DNA from: Rhodanobacteraceae bacterium
GTDB lineage: Bacteria; Pseudomonadota; Gammaproteobacteria; Xanthomonadales; Rhodanobacteraceae
DNA: 37,954 bases
NCBI GenBank assembly: GCA_025928585.1
Contig: JAICJG010000014.1
Location: forward strand, 1 to 37,954
Direction of reading: 5' to 3'
In this document: positions 12,694 through 35,776 of the stretch, piece after piece
Layout of the letters: each line of letters starts with the position of its first letter
How positions within the stretch are numbered: position 1 is the first letter of the stretch
Program-made: the position numbers and the translations under genes
The notes under the pieces: model-generated
Told to the model about the DNA's origin: nothing
The model's input: only the letters and a program-made list of their open reading frames with translations
Database searches by the model: none

Positions 12694-12753
12694 GGTCCCT
12701 GGTCCCTGGTTCCGAGTCCCGAGTCCCGGTCCCGGTCCAGGGTCCCGGGTCCC
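12694..12753. repeat. Heptanucleotide repeat array
   Basis: About 60 bp made of degenerate 7-bp units. On the plus strand the units run GGTCCCT twice and then AGTCCCG twice, followed by GTCCCGG-like units; on the minus strand they read GGGACTC and GGGACCN. The array directly abuts the TAG of the M13 peptidase gene and lies between it and the terminator. The same GGGACTC unit recurs inside leuS at 28363-28390, where 18 bp are identical (minus strand here, plus strand there). Confidence 0.85.
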
Positions 12754-14907
12754 CTACCAGATCTTCACCAGCTTGTCGCCGGTATGCGCCATCTTGCTCC
12801 CCGGCTTGCACTGGAACGCCTGTGCGAACTGCGGCATGTTGCTCGCCGCGGCGAACGCGCGGATCTTGTCGGGCGAGTGCGGATCGACGTTGAGCAGGAG
12901 CTCGGTGGTCTTCTCGCGGGAAGTGCCTTCCCACACGCGCGCCGAGTTCAGGAAGAAGCGCTGGTCCTCGGTCATGCCGTCGATCTTCTCGTCGGCTTCC
13001 TTGGGATCGGCCTTGAGCGCCGCCTGCAGCGCCGTGTAAGCAATGTTGAGGCCGCCGAGGTCGCCGATGTTCTCACCGAGGGTGAGCTTGCCGTTGACGT
13101 GCAGATCGGGTTTGTCGGAGATTGGCGTATACGCGTCGAACTGCTTGACCAGCGCCGCCGTGCGGGCGTCGAACTTCTTCTTGTCCTGCGGCGTCCACCA
13201 GTTGACCCGGTTGCCGTGGCCGTCGAACTGGCTGCCCTGGTCGTCGAAGCCGTGGCTAGATTCGTGGCCGATCACGTAGCCGATGCCGCCGTAGTTCACC
13301 GCGTCGTCGCCCTTGGCATAGAAGAACGGCGGCTGCAGGATCGCGGCCGGGAAGTTGATGGTGTTGGTGGTCGGGTCGTAGTAGGCGTTGATCGTCTGCG
13401 GCGTCATGCCCCATTCCTTGCGATCCGTGGCCTTGCCGATCTTGCCGATGTCGTAGTGGTAGTTGTATTTCGACGCTGCCTCGAGATTGGCGTACCACTT
13501 GCCCGGCTGGATGGCCAGGCCCGACCAGTCGCGCCATTCGCCCTTGTCGGGGTAGCCGATCTTGGGCAGGAACAGGGACCATTTCTCGAGCGCCTTCTTC
13601 TTGGTGGCCGCGCTCATCCAGTCGAGGTTCTCGATGTGCTCCTTCAACGCGTCGCGCACATTGGTGACCAGTTGTTCGGCACGCTGCTTGGATTCGGGCG
13701 GGAAGTACTTGGCGACGTACAGCTCGCCGAGTCCCATCCCCATCGCGCGGTTGACCGCGCCCACCACGCGCTTCCAGCGCTCCTTCTGCTCGGGCTGGCC
13801 GCGCAAGGTCTTGTCGTAAAAGTCGAAGTGGTTTTCCTGGAACGGTTGGCTGAGTGCCGTGGAGGCGTCGCTGACGAGGTGGAATTTCAGGTACGCCTGC
13901 CACTGGTTCACCGGGGCATGCGCCAGCAGCTTGTCGAACTCGGCGATGAACTTCGGCTGCGACAGCGAGAAGCCCTTGCCGACGTCGACGCCTTGGGTCT
14001 TGAAGAACTTGTCCCAACTGAAGTGCGGGCTGACCTTGTCCGCCTCCGCCACGGTCATGAAGTGGTATTCGTTGTCGAGATCGCGCAGTTCGGTCGGCGA
14101 CAGCGAGGCCTTGGCGAGCTCGGTTTCGAACTTCAATACTTCGTCGGCCTGCCTGTTCGCCTCGGCGTCCGGCGTGCCCACCAGCGCCAGCGACTTCGCG
14201 ATGTACTTGACGTACGCGTCGCGGATGTCCTTGTATTTCGGGGACAGGTAGTAGTCGCGGGTGGGAAGGCCCAAGCCGTCCTGGAAGACGTAGCCGATTT
14301 GCCGGGTGGCGTCCTTGAAATCGGCGCCCGATCCGAAGGAGAAGACATAGCTGTCGCCGTTGTTGTAGCTTGTGTCGATGAAGTTGGCGATGTCGGCCGG
14401 TGTCTTCAGCGCGTCGATCGCCGCGAGTTGCGGCTTGATCGGGCCGTAGCCCAGCTTGTCGATGGCCGCTTCGTCCATGCCCGCTGCATACAGGTTGCCG
14501 AGCTTCTGCTCCAGTGCGCTGCCCTTGTGCCCGTTGGCGCCCTGCGCGGCGGCCTCGAGGATCTGTTTCTGTTGCTGCATGCTGCGTTCGTGCAGGATGC
14601 CGAATGCGCCCCAGCGGGTCTGGTCGGACGGGATCGGATTGGCCTTGTTCCACTTCGCATTGACGTAGTCGGCGAAGTCGTTGCAGGGGTCGTACTGGTC
14701 GTCGAGGTCGAACGCGATCGGCTGTTCCGGAATGATCGCCACGGTCGAACCAGCGGCCGGAGCCGGCGCTGATTGCGTGGTCGCGGGCATCGCCGTCGAG
14801 GCGGCGGCCGCCGGGCTGTTCTGATTGTGGTCGTTGTTGCTGCAGCCGGCCACGGCCAGCGCCGCACCGATCGCCAATGCGACCGGGCTCAGCAGATGCT
14901 TGTGCAT
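12754..14907 (-). CDS. M13 family zinc metallopeptidase, lipoprotein (copy 1)
   Basis: The product is 717 aa. It has a lipoprotein signal peptide with lipobox VAGC (MHKHLLSPVALAIGAALAVAGCSNND), an Ala/Pro-rich linker, and then a full M13 (neprilysin/PepO-type) body. The zinc site is HESSH at residues 548-552 with Glu612 in GENIGDLGG and Asp616, the M13 spacing. The NAYYDPTTNTINFPAAILQPPFF motif is also present. The usual family form is HELTH, so SS at the third and fourth positions is a variant that keeps both His and the Glu. M13 enzymes cleave short peptides. With this lipobox it should be anchored in the envelope facing the periplasm or the outside. A close paralogue lies directly upstream on the same strand. 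It has its own terminator downstream and a small hairpin before its start. Confidence 0.95.
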   Translation of the reverse strand: MHKHLLSPVALAIGAALAVAGCSNNDHNQNSPAAAASTAMPATTQSAPAPAAGSTVAIIPEQPIAFDLDDQYDPCNDFADYVNAKWNKANPIPSDQTRWGAFGILHERSMQQQKQILEAAAQGANGHKGSALEQKLGNLYAAGMDEAAIDKLGYGPIKPQLAAIDALKTPADIANFIDTSYNNGDSYVFSFGSGADFKDATRQIGYVFQDGLGLPTRDYYLSPKYKDIRDAYVKYIAKSLALVGTPDAEANRQADEVLKFETELAKASLSPTELRDLDNEYHFMTVAEADKVSPHFSWDKFFKTQGVDVGKGFSLSQPKFIAEFDKLLAHAPVNQWQAYLKFHLVSDASTALSQPFQENHFDFYDKTLRGQPEQKERWKRVVGAVNRAMGMGLGELYVAKYFPPESKQRAEQLVTNVRDALKEHIENLDWMSAATKKKALEKWSLFLPKIGYPDKGEWRDWSGLAIQPGKWYANLEAASKYNYHYDIGKIGKATDRKEWGMTPQTINAYYDPTTNTINFPAAILQPPFFYAKGDDAVNYGGIGYVIGHESSHGFDDQGSQFDGHGNRVNWWTPQDKKKFDARTAALVKQFDAYTPISDKPDLHVNGKLTLGENIGDLGGLNIAYTALQAALKADPKEADEKIDGMTEDQRFFLNSARVWEGTSREKTTELLLNVDPHSPDKIRAFAAASNMPQFAQAFQCKPGSKMAHTGDKLVKIW

Positions 14908-15284: not shown

Positions 15285-17444
15285 TTACCAGATCTTCACC
15301 AGCTGGTCGCCCGTATGCGCCATCTTGTCACCGGGCTTGCACTGGAACGCCTGCGCGAACTGCGGCATGTTGCTCGCGGCAGCGAACGCCCGGATCTTGT
15401 CCGGCGCATGCGGATCGACATTGAGCCGCAATTCAGCGGTCTTCTCGCGCGTGGTGCCCTCCCACACGCGCGCCGAACTGAGGAAGAAACGCTGGTCCTC
15501 GGTCATGCCGTCGATCTTTTCGTGGGCTTCCTCCGGATGGGCTTGCAAGGCTTTCTGCAACGCGGCGTAGGCGACGTTGAGGCCGCCGAGGTCGCCGATG
15601 TCCTCACCGAGGGTGAGCTTGCCATTGACGTGCAGGTCGGGTTTGCCGGGAATCGGCGTGTACGCGTCGAACTGTTTCACAAGTGCCGCAGTGCGCGCGT
15701 CGAATTTCTTCTTGTCCTGCGGTGTCCACCAGTTGGTGCGGTTGCCGTGGCCGTCGAACTGGCTGCCCTGATCGTCGAAACCGTGGCTTGATTCGTGCCC
15801 GATCACGTAACCGATGCCGCCGTAGTTCACCGCATCGTCGCCTTTCGCGTAGAAGAACGGCGGCTGCAGGATCGCGGCCGGGAAGTTGATGGTGTTGGTG
15901 GTCGGGTCGTAGTAGGCATTGACGGTCTGCGGGGTCATGTGCCATTCCTTGCGATCCGTCGCCTTGCCGATCTTGCCGATGTTGTAGTGGTAGTTGTACT
16001 TGTCCGCGGCCTCGAGGTTCGCGTAGAAGTTGCCGGGTTGAATGTCCAGTCCTGACCAGTCGCGCCACTCGCCCTTGTTCGGGTAGCCAATCTTCGGAAG
16101 GAACAGCGCCCACTTCTCGAGCGCCTTCTTCTTGGTCGCTTCGCTCATCCAGTCGAGGTTCTGGATGCGCTGCTTCAGCGCGTCACGGACGTTGGTCACC
16201 AGTTGCTCCGCACGCTGCTTGGCTTCCGGTGGGAAATACTTCGCGACGTACAGCTCGCCGAGCCCCATGCCCATCGCATCGTTGGTCAAGTCCACGACCC
16301 GCTTCCAGCGCGCCTTCTGCTGGGGCTGCCCGGCGAGCGTATGGTTGTAGAAGTCGAAGCGGTTTTGCTGGAAAGCCTGGCTGAGCGCCGGCGAGGCATC
16401 GCTGACCAGGTGGAATTTCAGATACGCCTGCCACTGCGGCATGGGCGCGGTCGCGAGCAGGTGGTCGAATTCCTTGATGAACTTGGGTTGCGACAGCGAA
16501 AAACCCTTGCCGACGTCCACGCCTTGCGCCTTGAAGAACTTGCCCCAACTGAAGTGCGGGCTGACCTTGTCGGCTTCGGCAACCGTCACGAAGTGATAGC
16601 GGTTGTCGAGGTCACGCAGCTCGGTCGGCGTCAGTGAGGCTTCGGCGAGTTCGGTTTCGAACTTCATCACCTCGTCGGCCTGCTTCTTTGCGTCGGCTTG
16701 CGGCGTGCCGACCAGTTGCAGCGACTTGGCGATGTAGGCGACGTAGGCATCGCGGATCTGCTTGTACTGCGGCTTGAAGTAATAGTCCCTGGTGGGCAGG
16801 CCAAGGCCGCTTTGGTTGACATAGCCGATCTGCTTCGCGGCGTTCTTGAAATCGGCCCTCGCAGAGAAGCGGAAAACGTAGCTGTCGCCGTTGTCGAAGC
16901 TCCGGTCGATGAAGTCCTGGATCTGCCCACGGTCCTTGAGTCCGTCGATCCTGGCGAGTTCGGGCTTGATCGGGTCGTAGCCCAGCTTGTCGATGGCCGT
17001 CGCATCCATGCCGGCCGCATACAGTTTCCCGAGTTTCTGTTCGAGCGCGGTGCCCTTGTTGTCCCTGGCGTCCTGCGCAGCGGCTTCGAGGAGCTGCCGC
17101 TGATCCTGCAGGCTCTGTTCGTACAACATGTAGAAGCCCCCCCAACTGGTCTCATCCGCCGGGATCGGATGGGCGGCGTTCCACTTCGCATTCACGTAGT
17201 CGGCGAAGTCGGTGCAGGGGTCATATTGGTTGTCGAGTTCGAATGCGATCGGCTGCGCCAGGGAGGCGCCGCCGGTGGAAGCCGGGGACGGAGCAGACAC
17301 CGTGTGCGCAGGAGCCGGTGCGACCGACGCGGGCTGCGCGGGGGACGAACCCGCCGTTCCGTGCGGGGACTGGCTGCATCCGGCTGTGGCGAGTGCCAGC
17401 CCGGTGGCCAGCGCGACGAGAGTAGTGATCAGGGGCTTGTGCAT
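15285..17444 (-). CDS. M13 family zinc metallopeptidase, lipoprotein (copy 2)
   Basis: The product is 719 aa and is a tandem paralogue of the downstream copy, near-identical over long blocks from the QPIAFELDNQYDPCTDFADYVNAKWN segment to the shared C-terminus. The zinc motif is again HESSH (about 550-554), with Glu614 in GEDIGDLGG, and NAYYDPTTNTINFPAAILQPPFF is kept. The lipobox is ATAGC after MHKPLITTLVALATGLAL. The N-terminal linker differs from copy 1, so the copies diverged most outside the catalytic body. The start is set by the lipoprotein signal and a GAGAGG ribosome binding site. No terminator with a T-run is seen downstream of its stop, only the repeat-bearing gap. An intact active site in both copies argues that both work, perhaps on different peptides. 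Confidence 0.95.
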   Translation of the reverse strand: MHKPLITTLVALATGLALATAGCSQSPHGTAGSSPAQPASVAPAPAHTVSAPSPASTGGASLAQPIAFELDNQYDPCTDFADYVNAKWNAAHPIPADETSWGGFYMLYEQSLQDQRQLLEAAAQDARDNKGTALEQKLGKLYAAGMDATAIDKLGYDPIKPELARIDGLKDRGQIQDFIDRSFDNGDSYVFRFSARADFKNAAKQIGYVNQSGLGLPTRDYYFKPQYKQIRDAYVAYIAKSLQLVGTPQADAKKQADEVMKFETELAEASLTPTELRDLDNRYHFVTVAEADKVSPHFSWGKFFKAQGVDVGKGFSLSQPKFIKEFDHLLATAPMPQWQAYLKFHLVSDASPALSQAFQQNRFDFYNHTLAGQPQQKARWKRVVDLTNDAMGMGLGELYVAKYFPPEAKQRAEQLVTNVRDALKQRIQNLDWMSEATKKKALEKWALFLPKIGYPNKGEWRDWSGLDIQPGNFYANLEAADKYNYHYNIGKIGKATDRKEWHMTPQTVNAYYDPTTNTINFPAAILQPPFFYAKGDDAVNYGGIGYVIGHESSHGFDDQGSQFDGHGNRTNWWTPQDKKKFDARTAALVKQFDAYTPIPGKPDLHVNGKLTLGEDIGDLGGLNVAYAALQKALQAHPEEAHEKIDGMTEDQRFFLSSARVWEGTTREKTAELRLNVDPHAPDKIRAFAAASNMPQFAQAFQCKPGDKMAHTGDQLVKIW

Positions 17445-20933: not shown

Positions 20934-20974
20934 GGTTGGGCTGATCCCGGGCTTGTGCCGGGAGAAGCCCAACC
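20934..20974. repeat. GTTGGGCT-arm hairpin repeat, type A (locus 2, best copy)
   Basis: GGTTGGGCT-GA-TCCCGG, a 7-nt loop, then CCGGGA-GA-AGCCCAACC. The outer 9-bp and inner 6-bp stems are perfect and are separated by a symmetric GA/GA internal loop, which in RNA could form tandem sheared G-A pairs. It is the best-preserved type A copy in the window. Confidence 0.85.
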
Positions 20975-21023
20975 GTCGACCCGGAAGGGGACGCGGCAGC
21001 GGTTGTGGGCGGATCAACGGGCT

Positions 21024-26495: not shown

Positions 26496-29246
<2,751 letters not shown>

Positions 29247-30040: not shown

Positions 30041-31069
30041 GTGACGATCGAACCGGACGGCTTCCCCGGGACCCTGGCCAAGGGCGACCTCGCGCCGGTG
30101 TACCTGCTGGGCGGCGAGGAACCGCTGCAATTGCAGGAAGCCGGTGACGCGTTGCGGGCGCGCGCCCGCGCACTCGGCTTCACCGAACGCGACGTGCTGG
30201 ACGTCGAGCCGAACTTCGACTGGGACCGGCTGGCGCGGAGTGGCGCGAGCCTGTCGCTGTTCGCCTCCAGGCGCCTGATCGAATTGCGCCTCCCGACCGG
30301 CAAGCCCGATCGCGACGGAGCCGCCGCGATCACCGAGTGGTGCAAGTCGCCGGCACCCGACACCGTATTGCTGATCAGCGCGATGCAGTGGAGCAAGAAG
30401 CACGAAGGCGCCTGGGTGAAGGCGGTCGAGCGTGCCGGCCGCTACGTGCGATTGCAGGCACCGCGCGTCGATCAATTGCCGGCCTGGATCAGGGCGCGCA
30501 TGCGCGCCCACGGCTTTGCGCCTTCCGCCGACGCGGTCGCGTTGTTGGCCGCGCGTGCGGAGGGCAACCTGCTCGCGATCGCCCAGGAGATCGACAAGCT
30601 CGCGGGGTTGCGGGGCCCGGGCCCGGTGGAGGCGCAGGAGCTGGAGGCGCTCGGCGAAGAGAATGCCGTGTACGACGTGTTCCGCCTCACCGACGCTGCG
30701 TTCGGCGGCGACGCGCTGCGCGCGCTGAAGATCGTTGCGGGGCTGCGTGCGGAAGGCGAGGAGCTGATCCCGATGATGGGTTGGGTGCTGAACCAGCTCG
30801 ACCTCGCGCTGCGGCTCGCATCTGCGTCCGATTTTGCGAGCGCGGTGCGCAACGAGTACAACTTCTGGCCCGCGCGCCAGAAGCTGTTTGCCGGTGCGTT
30901 GAAGCGCGCCGGTCGCGGCGACGCGCACTGGCGGCGCTGTCTTGCCTGGTGCGCGAGGATCGACCGGATGGCGAAGGGCCGCGAGGCGGGCGACCCGTGG
31001 CGCGAGATGGAACGGCTCATGGTCGCGATCGCGCAGCCGCGCGCGGCCGACGTGTTGCTGGCGGCATGA
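30041..31069 (+). CDS. holA: DNA polymerase III subunit delta
   Basis: The product is 342 aa, the family size. Conserved segments are LAPVYLLGGEEPLQLQEAGDALRARARALG near the N-terminus, SLSLFASRRLIELRLPTGKP, WVKAVERAGRYVRLQAPRVDQLPAWIRARM, LLAARAEGNLLAIAQEIDKLAGL and ENAVYDVFRLTDAAFGGDALRALKI. Delta opens the sliding clamp as part of the clamp loader. It starts with GTG only 3 bp after the lptE stop, so it is translated from the same message. Its TGA stop is the first codon of a 46-bp tandem repeat. Confidence 0.96.
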   Translation: MTIEPDGFPGTLAKGDLAPVYLLGGEEPLQLQEAGDALRARARALGFTERDVLDVEPNFDWDRLARSGASLSLFASRRLIELRLPTGKPDRDGAAAITEWCKSPAPDTVLLISAMQWSKKHEGAWVKAVERAGRYVRLQAPRVDQLPAWIRARMRAHGFAPSADAVALLAARAEGNLLAIAQEIDKLAGLRGPGPVEAQELEALGEENAVYDVFRLTDAAFGGDALRALKIVAGLRAEGEELIPMMGWVLNQLDLALRLASASDFASAVRNEYNFWPARQKLFAGALKRAGRGDAHWRRCLAWCARIDRMAKGREAGDPWREMERLMVAIAQPRAADVLLAA

Positions 31070-31204
31070 AGAAGAGCAGGATCCGTCCGCGAATGAACGC
31101 AAAGTGTGTGAATGAAGTAGCGCAGGATCGGTCCGCGAATGAACGCAAAGGGCGTGAATGAAGAAGCGCAGGATGGGTCCGGAAATGAACAGGAAGAATG
31201 CGAA
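31067..31204 (+). repeat. Tandem repeat, 3 x 46 bp
   Basis: Three imperfect units start at 31067, 31113 and 31159. Each begins TGAAGAAGnGCAGGAT or close to it, followed by GTCCGCGAATGAACGCAAAG in units 1 and 2. Unit 3 is the most diverged towards its end. The first TGA is the holA stop codon. The repeats fill most of the holA-nadD gap. Since 46 is not a multiple of three, the units are not built as a protein repeat. Confidence 0.92.
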
Positions 31205-33020: not shown

Positions 33021-33049
33021 TCCCGGACCTGTTCCGGGAGAAGCCCAAC
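33021..33049. repeat. GTTGGGCT repeat, type A, right half (locus 3)
   Basis: TCCCGG, a 7-nt loop, then CCGGGA-GA-AGCCCAAC. This matches the inner stem and right arm of the type A copy at 20934, but the left arm GGTTGGGCT is lost. Confidence 0.75.
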
Positions 33050-33087
33050 ATTCGTCGCGTCTATGGCGGGGGGATGAAGGCGCCCGT

Positions 33088-33177: not shown

Positions 33178-34992
33178 ATGGCGATCGATCTTGGTGTGGT
33201 GCTCACCGTGCTGCTGGTGGTGGGCTTCCTCGCCCAATGGCTGGCGTGGCGGATGCGGCTGCCCGCGATCCTGTTCCTGCTGCTGATCGGCATCGCGCTG
33301 GGCCCGGCCACGGGGCTGTTCAACCCCGACAAGGCGCTGGGCGCGTTCCTGTTCCCGACGGTCTCGCTTGCGGTCGCATTGATCCTCTTCGAGGGCAGCC
33401 TGACGCTGCGCTTCTCGGAGCTGCGCGGCATCGGTCGTTCGGTGCGCGGCCTGGTCAGTTACGGCGCGGTGCTGGCGCTCCTGATGTTGGCTGCGGCAGC
33501 GCACTGGATCGCGGGTTTGCGGTGGGAAGTCGCGTTCCTGTTCGGCGCATTGACCTGCGTAACCGGGCCCACGGTGATCACGCCGATGCTGCGCACCTTG
33601 CGGCCCGACGCGCGCATTGCCAGTGCACTGCGCTGGGAAGGCATCATCCTCGATCCCCTCGGCGCGCTGTTCGCGGTGCTGGTGTTCGAGGCGATCGTGT
33701 CGCACCAGCAGGGTCATTCGCTCGCGGTGTTCGGCGCCACCGTCGGCATCGGGGCTGCGATCGGGATGGTAGTCGCGGCCGGGCTCGCCGTGCTGCTGTA
33801 CCGGCAGATGATCCCCGAGTACCTGCAGGCGTACGGAACGCTGATCGCGGTGCTGGGCGCTTTCACGCTTTCGAACCAGTTGGCGCACGAGTCGGGCCTG
33901 GTGGCGGTGACGTTGATGGGGATCACCCTGGGCAACGTGCGCCGGATCCACATCGACCACATCATGGACTTCAAGGAACACCTGTCCACGTTGCTGGTGT
34001 CGCTGCTGTTCGTGGTGCTGGCCGCGCGCCTGCACTGGCCGCTGCCGCCGGGCATGTTGATGGCCGGCATCCTGGTGTTCCTGGTCGCGCAGTTCCTGAT
34101 CCGGCCCTTCACGGTGCTGGTCGGAACGGTGGGCGGTGGCATGACCTGGCGCGAGCGCGCGCTGGTCGGCTATGTCTCGCCACGCGGCATCGTGGCGGCG
34201 TCGGTGTCCTCGCTGTTCGCACTGCGCCTGGGTGAGTTGGGGGTGGCTGGCGCCGGCGCGCTGGTGCCGCTGGTATTCATCCTGATCATCGCGACGGTAG
34301 TCCTCCAGAGCGCCACCGCACGGCCACTGGCGCGCTGGCTCGGCGTCGCGGCACCCGATCCGACCGGCGTGTTGATCTACGGTTCCGATGAAGTCGCGCG
34401 CGGCATCGCCACGGCGCTGGTGGAGCAAGGTTTCCAGGTCATCGTTGCCGACGACGATTGGGATGGCATCAGCAAGGCGCGCATGGGTGGCCTCAGCACG
34501 TTCTACGGCAATCCCACTTCGCAGCATGCGGAGTTGAATCTCGACCTGACCGGCATTGGGCGGTTGCTCGCGATGTCCGTGCGACGCGAGATGAATTCGC
34601 TCGCGTGCATGCACTATCGGGCGGAGTTCGGCCGCGAGCGCGTCTATCGACTGCGGGTGCTGGCCCCCGAGGAAAGCGGCAATCGCGCGGCGTTCGCCGG
34701 CAGCCTGCGCTCCAGGGCGCTGTTCGGCAACGACATGACGCACACGCGCTTCAGCGAACTGCTCGCGGCCGGATGGCGGATCAAGGCCAACGCGTTGACG
34801 GTCGCGTTCGACTGGCCGGCCTTCGTCGCACAGCATGGCGCGGATACGGTGCTGCTGTTCGGGATCGAGCCGGGTGGCAAGCTGCGCGTCGCGAGCAACC
34901 GTCGTCGAACCGAGCCGCGCAGTGGCTGGACGGTGATCGCGCTGGTTCCGCCGGCTGCTGCCGAGGCTGCTCCCGCACACGCACCCGTTTGA
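33178..34992 (+). CDS. CPA1-type cation:proton antiporter with TrkA-like C-terminal domain
   Basis: The product is 604 aa. About 12 membrane helices lie in residues 1-385 (MRLPAILFLLLIGIALGPATGLFNP, SLAVALILFEGSLTLRFSELR, FLFGALTCVTGPTVITPMLRTLRP, WEGIILDPLGALFAVLVFE). The PTVI and EGIILDP segments hold the polar and acidic residues expected in the ion path of CPA1 exchangers. WRERALVGYVSPRGIVAASVSSLFAL is typical of NhaP-like members. The cytoplasmic part (about 395-604) resembles a TrkA-N/RCK regulatory domain (GVLIYGSDEVARGIATALVEQGFQVIVADDD) but lacks a full GxGxxG. The ion (Na+ or K+) cannot be told. GAGG precedes the ATG. Its position between rlmH and maf, with repeats on both sides, suggests later insertion. 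Confidence 0.9.
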   Translation: MAIDLGVVLTVLLVVGFLAQWLAWRMRLPAILFLLLIGIALGPATGLFNPDKALGAFLFPTVSLAVALILFEGSLTLRFSELRGIGRSVRGLVSYGAVLALLMLAAAAHWIAGLRWEVAFLFGALTCVTGPTVITPMLRTLRPDARIASALRWEGIILDPLGALFAVLVFEAIVSHQQGHSLAVFGATVGIGAAIGMVVAAGLAVLLYRQMIPEYLQAYGTLIAVLGAFTLSNQLAHESGLVAVTLMGITLGNVRRIHIDHIMDFKEHLSTLLVSLLFVVLAARLHWPLPPGMLMAGILVFLVAQFLIRPFTVLVGTVGGGMTWRERALVGYVSPRGIVAASVSSLFALRLGELGVAGAGALVPLVFILIIATVVLQSATARPLARWLGVAAPDPTGVLIYGSDEVARGIATALVEQGFQVIVADDDWDGISKARMGGLSTFYGNPTSQHAELNLDLTGIGRLLAMSVRREMNSLACMHYRAEFGRERVYRLRVLAPEESGNRAAFAGSLRSRALFGNDMTHTRFSELLAAGWRIKANALTVAFDWPAFVAQHGADTVLLFGIEPGGKLRVASNRRRTEPRSGWTVIALVPPAAAEAAPAHAPV

Positions 34993-35000
34993 GTACGAAC

Positions 35001-35058
35001 CCGTTCGCGTCGAGCCCTTCGACAATCTCGGGACAGGCTGCGTGAGCCTGGCGAACGG
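35001..35058. repeat. Two-hairpin junction repeat element
   Basis: The outer arms CCGTTCGC (35001-35008) and GCGAACGG (35051-35058) pair perfectly. Inside are two hairpins: GTCGA-GCCCT-TCGAC (35009-35023) and CAGGCT-GCGTG-AGCCTG (35034-35050). The first hairpin abuts the left outer arm and the second abuts the right one, so the whole could fold as a three-way junction. The GCCCTTCGACA core resembles a dispersed repeat known from many proteobacteria. Confidence 0.85.
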
Positions 35059-35203
35059 AGTCGAAACGCCGATCGTCATTGCTTCGACGTCGGCCCTTCG
35101 CGCCTGCGCGCAAGACGAACGAAAAAACCCGGCGAGGCATGGCTGAGCCTGCAGCCTCCGCAGCCGACGTTCGATCGCTTCGGTGCGCCGGTATGCTGGC
35201 GCG

Positions 35204-35776
35204 ATGCTTTATCTGGCCTCGCAATCCCCGCGTCGGCGCGAGTTGCTCGCGCAACTTGGCGTCCGGTTCGAAGTCGTCGCGGTGGATGTGCCCGAAGAGC
35301 GCACGCCGGCCGAAACGCCACGCGACTACGTCGAACGGGTGGCGCGCGAAAAAGCGCTGTCGGGATTGCGCACGGCATCGACGACCGATGCGGCGGCGGT
35401 GGTGCTGGGTGCCGACACCGAAGTGGTGCTGGACGGGCGGGTATTCGGCAAGCCTTGCGACGCCGCTGATGCGGCGGGGATGCTGCGGGCGTTGTCCGGC
35501 CGCACGCACCGGGTGGTCTCGGTGGTGTGCTGCGCGAGCCGGAGCGCGACCGGAATCGCGGCGTGCGAATCGGAAGTGACGTTCGCCGATCTGGATGATG
35601 CCCGGATCGCGCGCTACGTCGCGACCGCCGAACCGTTCGGCAAGGCCGGCGGCTACGCGATCCAGGGCAGGGCGGCCGCCTTCATCGCGCATCTTTCCGG
35701 AAGCTACTCGGGGGTGATGGGACTGCCGCTGTTCGAGACGGCGGGGCTGCTGCGCGCGGCCCATCGCGATGCCTGA
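35204..35776 (+). CDS. maf: Maf family nucleoside triphosphate pyrophosphatase (YhdE type)
   Basis: The product is 190 aa. The N-terminal signature is LYLASQSPRRRELLAQLGVRFEV (residues 2-24). VLGADTEVVLDGRVFGKP contains Asp71, the likely catalytic base, followed by RTHRVVSVV and GGYAIQGRAAAFIAHLSGSYSGVMGLPLFETAGLL. The GYAIQG and GSYSGVMGLPL segments favour the dTTP/UTP pyrophosphatase subgroup (YhdE) over the YceF subgroup. Such enzymes remove modified nucleotides. The start at 35204 (MLYLASQSPR) fits the family; the track start at 35183 adds seven unlike residues. rng follows on the same strand, an order conserved in gammaproteobacteria. Confidence 0.95.
   Translation: MLYLASQSPRRRELLAQLGVRFEVVAVDVPEERTPAETPRDYVERVAREKALSGLRTASTTDAAAVVLGADTEVVLDGRVFGKPCDAADAAGMLRALSGRTHRVVSVVCCASRSATGIAACESEVTFADLDDARIARYVATAEPFGKAGGYAIQGRAAAFIAHLSGSYSGVMGLPLFETAGLLRAAHRDA

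Follow-up and report, generated by a model that had tools for sequence, protein, structure and literature searches.

REPINs are doublets of REP sequences that form hairpins and are found with RAYT (Bertels and Rainey 2011, PMC3116915). CGTC-tagged REPs, which are proteobacterial and mostly arranged as inverted dimers, have no transposase dedicated to them, as stated by Di Nocera et al. (2013, PMC3733652). Here we analysed a repeat in a stretch of 37,954 nucleotides from a Rhodanobacteraceae bacterium (assembly GCA_025928585.1, contig JAICJG010000014.1; hereafter the window, with all features given on its + strand). The results suggest that the element is likely a non-autonomous, decayed member of a mobile, REP-like family that is linked to GIY-YIG nucleases, the role of the enzyme being the least certain step of this reading.

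The element starts at 35001. A Na+/H+ exchanger gene (33178-34992, PF00999) lies upstream, its stop 9 nt away, and maf (PF02545) lies downstream with its ATG at 35204. We confirmed the perfect 8-bp arms and the two abutting hairpins given in the preliminary description: CCGTTCGC at 35001-35008 and GCGAACGG at 35051-35058 form the arms, a GTCGA/TCGAC hairpin (35009-35013/35019-35023) abuts the left one and a CAGGCT/AGCCTG hairpin (35034-35039/35045-35050) abuts the right one. The RNA minimum-free-energy fold of 35001-35058 is exactly this arrangement, with an energy of -28.1 kcal/mol (z -2.6) that 2 of 200 shuffles equal. The 8-mer GCGAACGG on its own occurs in the window with no excess over chance, as would suit a chance palindrome of GC-rich intergenic DNA; that explanation is already refuted by dozens of homologous copies with covarying stems, and we give it practically no credence. 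However, 35001-35058, taken earlier for the whole element, is only its left half. The full repeat is about 122 bp long and consists of module A, a linker and module B; it is covered at 35001-35122 by a family covariance model that was built with the window copy included (101.5 bits, E 6.6e-18), and the nhmmer match of the window repeat spans 35002-35121.

The window also holds other repeats. A dispersed repeat of the form TCCCGG...CCGGGAGAAGCCCAAC is present at 20945-20983 and 33021-33059, the two being 82% alike and the second lying just before the antiporter gene. A 46-bp unit stands in three head-to-tail copies at 31066-31203, and 12698-12730 and 28360-28392 are inverted copies of a 33-nt ACCGGGACTCGGGACTCG-type repeat, 85% complementary to each other. 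The stretches 12755-14703 and 15286-17234, which lie 2531 bp apart and are 79-84% alike, are probably duplicated genes.

Of 61 relatives searched, 13 have copies of the repeat, and 11 of these 13 belong to the same genus. The covariance model gave 65 matches in G011, 47 in G014, 46 in G015, 27 each in G003 and G013, and 18 in the window's own genome; these are matches at E <= 0.01 of a model that contains the window copy rather than a census, and are upper counts since palindromic copies can match both strands. We extracted 98 copies for comparison of the family. They come in two forms: the short form measures very roughly 85-110 bp, and the long form, at about 118-135 bp, has an extra stretch resembling CCCTTCGACAAGCTCAGGACAGGC. 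The window copy is of the long form. Outside the relatives, 37 nt of the long form recur exactly in metagenome-assembled genomes labelled Deltaproteobacteria, Betaproteobacteria, Gammaproteobacteria and Hylemonella, and 9 of 399 sampled genomes of the phylum have a match at E <= 1e-4. No copy was found in plasmid and phage collections at blastn sensitivity, Rfam gave no match in the window and none to the element in its copies, and the literature searched quotes the core sequence nowhere. The family ends are CCGTTC...GAACGG, and the short copies without a gene are, as in a MITE, short, non-coding and delimited by terminal inverted repeats. No target-site duplication is evident in the flanks, the relatives being too diverged for exact empty sites. 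In some copies (L047, L057, L059, L068, L003 and others) the terminal CGAACGG is preceded by an additional hairpin, GCCTGCCCCGGACTTGATCCGGGG.

To resolve the family structure, we relied on covariation. The short form consists of A and B, inverted copies of one hairpin, each with a lower stem, an internal loop conserved as GAGCGTA / GRAGTCGA, and a variable inner stem. Against a null in which letters were permuted inside each column, which leaves kinship in place so that the contrasts overstate independence, Watson-Crick cells were in excess in all four stems: 287/310 versus 226 +/- 5 in the lower stem of A (62 copies), 281/305 versus 226 +/- 4.5 in that of B, 223/252 versus 137 +/- 5.7 in the inner stem of A (short copies), and 284/305 versus 183 +/- 6 in that of B. 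Many differing stem sequences occur, each paired to its own complement. The earlier remark that the layout is more than a simple REP palindrome holds. In the long form, A becomes a three-way junction formed by P1 (GYRYT/ARYRC), P2 (GAGC/GCTC) and P3, the inner stem. Over 23 long copies, 86.4% of the cells of this junction are paired versus 78.9% after shuffling, with 35 cells changed on both sides versus 12.6 expected. P2 is the least supported of the three stems because it has no both-side changes.

A three-way junction is what the preliminary description had proposed, and in the long copies such a form exists, but not with the stems it named. Tried as the structure of the family on the same 23 long copies, those stems gave 72.0% paired cells versus 71.4% shuffled and 6 both-side changes versus 3.0, so that they were rejected for want of excess covariation, and the other genomic copies do not keep all three of them. 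Two further candidates were dropped. Our first alternative structure, laid on the full alignment, gave a poor inner stem of A owing to indels, and was replaced by tests on segments and by an alignment of the long form. The RNAalifold consensus consisted of other, mostly invariant pairs, and was set aside because invariant pairs prove nothing. The family structure rests on covariation rather than energy; the window copy alone folds better in the way first described, with -29.2 versus -9.7 kcal/mol for the family structure.

Mapped onto the window, the family structure starts with the left head CCGTTC (35001-35006), which is near-invariant among copies. The 5' strand of P1, GCGTC (35007-35011), has its partner in AACGC (35065-35069), the 3' strand; four of five pairs are kept here, and the stem is supported by covariation, over 62 copies and also in the long copies taken alone. 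P2 (35012-35029) joins GAG at 35012-35014 to CTC at 35027-35029, and 92.4% of its cells are paired. P3 (35038-35060) pairs 35038-35047 with 35051-35060, imperfectly in this copy; it covaries among copies, with both-side changes at three pairs in the long ones. It contains the right arm GCGAACGG, which in fact runs along the 3' side of P3 into the beginning of the conserved loop. The motif of this loop, GGAGTCGA at 35057-35064, was recognised from its conservation among copies. Module B, the inverted copy of the hairpin, occupies 35079-35116; it is supported by covariation in the family, and its pairs in the window were read from the sequence itself. Its inner stem (35092-35096 with 35100-35104) keeps four of five pairs, and its lower stem (35079-35083 with 35112-35116) is decayed, with two of five. 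Comparison of the copies places the right terminal motif, GAACGA in the window and GAACGG in the family, at 35117-35122. On the other side, CGTTTGA at 34986-34992 may be an outer part of the element that includes the antiporter stop codon, as the sequence immediately beyond the copies shows a more than 50-fold enrichment of GTTTGA and of TTTGAA, each at only 14 of 157 ends. The stop codon itself lies inside this CGTTTGA, which resembles the enriched motifs. The C-terminal end of the antiporter protein is unlike that of relatives.

The genomic setting, which the preliminary description had missed, is that of a mobile element. Allowing up to one mismatch, the complete genome G014 has 45 heads; these make up 17 pairs of neighbours no more than 200 bp apart, and in 16 of the 17 the heads point outward. 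Of the 67 copies that a crude ORF caller allowed to be classified, 64 are intergenic. The antiporter and maf are adjacent in seven relatives, and the gap between them is about 20-35 nt in G009, G002 and G008 versus 211 nt in the window; at all 15 other maf loci of the relatives the element is absent. Alternatively, the element could be a structured RNA or cis-element, i.e. a three-way-junction RNA, a terminator or a stabiliser of mRNA 3' ends, selected for the antiporter or for maf. Such a role would fit the strong predicted fold, the position just past a stop codon, and the fact that copies lie nearer to the stop codon upstream (median 23.5 nt) than to the start codon downstream (median 54 nt). 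Yet the copies show no preferred orientation to genes (26 vs 22) and transcript-sense mismatches no excess of G-T over A-C (7 vs 9), which, though the counts are small, speaks against selection as RNA; nor do the lack of an Rfam match and the same site being empty in 15 relatives agree with it. We therefore regard an RNA role as very improbable. The element is probably mobile and a DNA structure, and the window copy a relic that lengthened the antiporter-maf gap.

Mobility by a RAYT, a HUH tyrosine transposase, would be the familiar explanation for intergenic, many-copy, inverted hairpin doublets that are so REPIN-like, and part of the genus has RAYT-like genes. However, the element is near none of 13 Y1 transposase (PF01797) loci, and the palindromes flanking Y1 transposase genes, where present, are of the GTAG type. 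The copy-rich genomes G011, G013, G015 and G003 have no RAYT match, and the heads of the copies are CCGTTC, with no GTAG/GTGG head. It is hence most doubtful that RAYT moves this family.

A different enzyme was found within some members of the family. Through long-range head pairs, an ORF between two modules was found in G014, and its product is a GIY-YIG domain protein (PF01541). Three small GIY-YIG genes of the genus, in the three genomes G013, G014 and G015, lie between inverted modules, and these are the only carriers known in the genus. The gene-bearing members hold a GIY-YIG nuclease and not any known transposase. At locus L263, the element measures about 400 bp in all, with no more than a few tens of bases between either end of the ORF and the hairpins. 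In L262, the right-hand module is reduced to a TTCGACAAGCTCAGGAC form, and in the G014 copy the start of the ORF is seemingly lost. The window copy itself has no gene, and its own genome gave only a UvrC-type GIY-YIG match, with no match to either of the small clades described below; the window copy is considered a relic because no element-type GIY-YIG gene was detected in its genome. No clade-A gene was detected in the copy-rich G011 either (65 matches), where loss or draft gaps are possible, as draft genomes may lack genes.

We examined whether the association extends beyond the genus by collecting homologues of the L263 protein from 399 genomes of the phylum. In a tree, the module-flanked genes all fall into one clade of 32 rows (clade A; support 83/90), apart from a second small clade of 14 (support 100/100); the labels L296, L301, L322 and L324 were assigned by eye. 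A first pattern based on the CCGTTC head missed most loci, as heads vary, and was replaced by a strict module, defined as the core GAGC...TCGA with four complementary bases on each side. This module lies within 300 bp of the gene at 12 of 28 testable clade-A loci, on both sides at 8, in a test that was not blind, as part of the flanks had been inspected before the motif was defined. With a background of 0.059 per kb farther out in the same loci, the binomial P is about 6e-11, a value to be read with the homologues being related to each other and the loci not independent. All 12 module-flanked loci are among the 17 closest homologues. The strict module was at none of seven UvrC loci and at none of the genus's other small GIY-YIG genes. 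Among element-holding genomes outside the genus, 5 of 8 have the gene versus 14 of about 390 others, at thresholds of our choosing. In Sphingomonas parapaucimobilis, for example, a clade-A gene with module-like flanks lies between nrdR and an RNA methyltransferase gene.

A motif-free test, in which the upstream flank was aligned to the reverse complement of the downstream flank, found that 15 of 32 clade-A loci have inverted repeats. At L303, L309, L312, L314, L315, L317 and L324 (Methylobacterium), clade-A genes are bracketed by a hairpin of another type, CCTCATCCTGAGG...TCGAAGGA. In the second clade (clade B), the same test found inverted repeats, mostly CGTC REPs, at 9 of 14 loci, and in a fresh phylum sample 19 of 26 second-clade loci exceeded 99% of the null. 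As controls, maf gave 0/15, UvrC 0/7 (its flanks being inside or beside the long gene) and Y1 transposase loci 6/12; in all six the palindromes are of the GTAG type, which is what one would expect of RAYTs. Searched directly, the CGTC motif is on both sides of 11 of 14 second-clade loci in the genus and of 16 of 26 in the phylum, where its background is 0.21 per kb. The pairing does not cross: the CGTC motif is on both sides of none of 29 clade-A loci, and the clade-A module is near none of 26 clade-B loci. In Azospirillum lipoferum 4B, a clade-B gene with CGTC repeats on both sides lies between sufB and sufC. Second-clade genes bracketed by inverted CGTC REPs of the type CGTCATTCCCGCG...CGCGGGAATCCA were seen in the genus and across the phylum, among L264-L271, L277, L280, L281 and L290, L325-L354, and L355.

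GIY-YIG genes are associated with the repeats, and the evidence leans towards small GIY-YIG nucleases being the dedicated mobility enzymes of two large proteobacterial REP groups, the GAGC/GTCGA family and the CGTC REPs, in nuclease-repeat pairs parallel to RAYT-REP. In such a mechanism, the nuclease would recognise the hairpin as a cruciform or as single-stranded DNA and cut at the hairpin or at the target, whereupon the element would be copied or moved; the short copies without a gene could be mobilised in trans. An effect on antiporter mRNA, if any, would be secondary. Alternatively, the gene may be a parasite or passenger, i.e. a homing-type nuclease entering abundant REP doublets that owe their movement to something else. 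Homing endonucleases are known among GIY-YIG proteins (PMC1564403), and the gene is absent from most copies, with no carrier detected even in the copy-rich G011. A passenger is at odds, however, with the tight fit of the L263 ORF between its hairpins, and with two GIY-YIG clades pairing with two repeat types without crossing, as expected under protein-repeat co-evolution; we consider it unlikely, though the strongest of the competing explanations.

The nearest solved relatives of the element-borne protein are the UPF0213 GIY-YIG proteins BH0048 (PDB 1zg2, E 4e-14) and EF2693 (1ywl, E 6e-12), which are from other bacteria and listed as hypothetical. In the literature searched, which takes in few subscription journals and preprints, the one paper that mentions both GIY-YIG and repetitive extragenic sequences is a Moraxella study whose title points to another subject, and no partner was found described for the repeats of the family studied here. 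The pairing by clade provides both REP groups with a candidate enzyme, a proposal that is testable with one small protein and one hairpin. If it is true, a second kind of nuclease, unrelated to RAYTs, lives with REP doublets.

Compared with known systems, the family is like REPINs in its inverted-doublet unit, compensatory hairpin changes, intergenic placing and many copies. Unlike them, it has neither RAYT linkage nor a GTAG/GTGG head, the hairpin that makes up each half has an asymmetric internal loop that is conserved, and full-length members carry a GIY-YIG gene; because RAYT linkage and the GTAG tag both fail, we did not file the element as a REPIN. CGTC REPs have simple stems of 8-9 bp and the CGTC tag, whereas the window family has neither, showing a CCGTTC head and a two-part stem instead; like the window family, they are paired here with a GIY-YIG clade, the sister clade. 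The RAYT-REP systems of Stenotrophomonas and Xanthomonas (PMC2817692) differ in their HUH tyrosine transposase (PF01797) and GTAG-tagged palindromes, but share the same overall plan, a small nuclease gene with inverted palindromes on either side, the palindromes also being dispersed alone.
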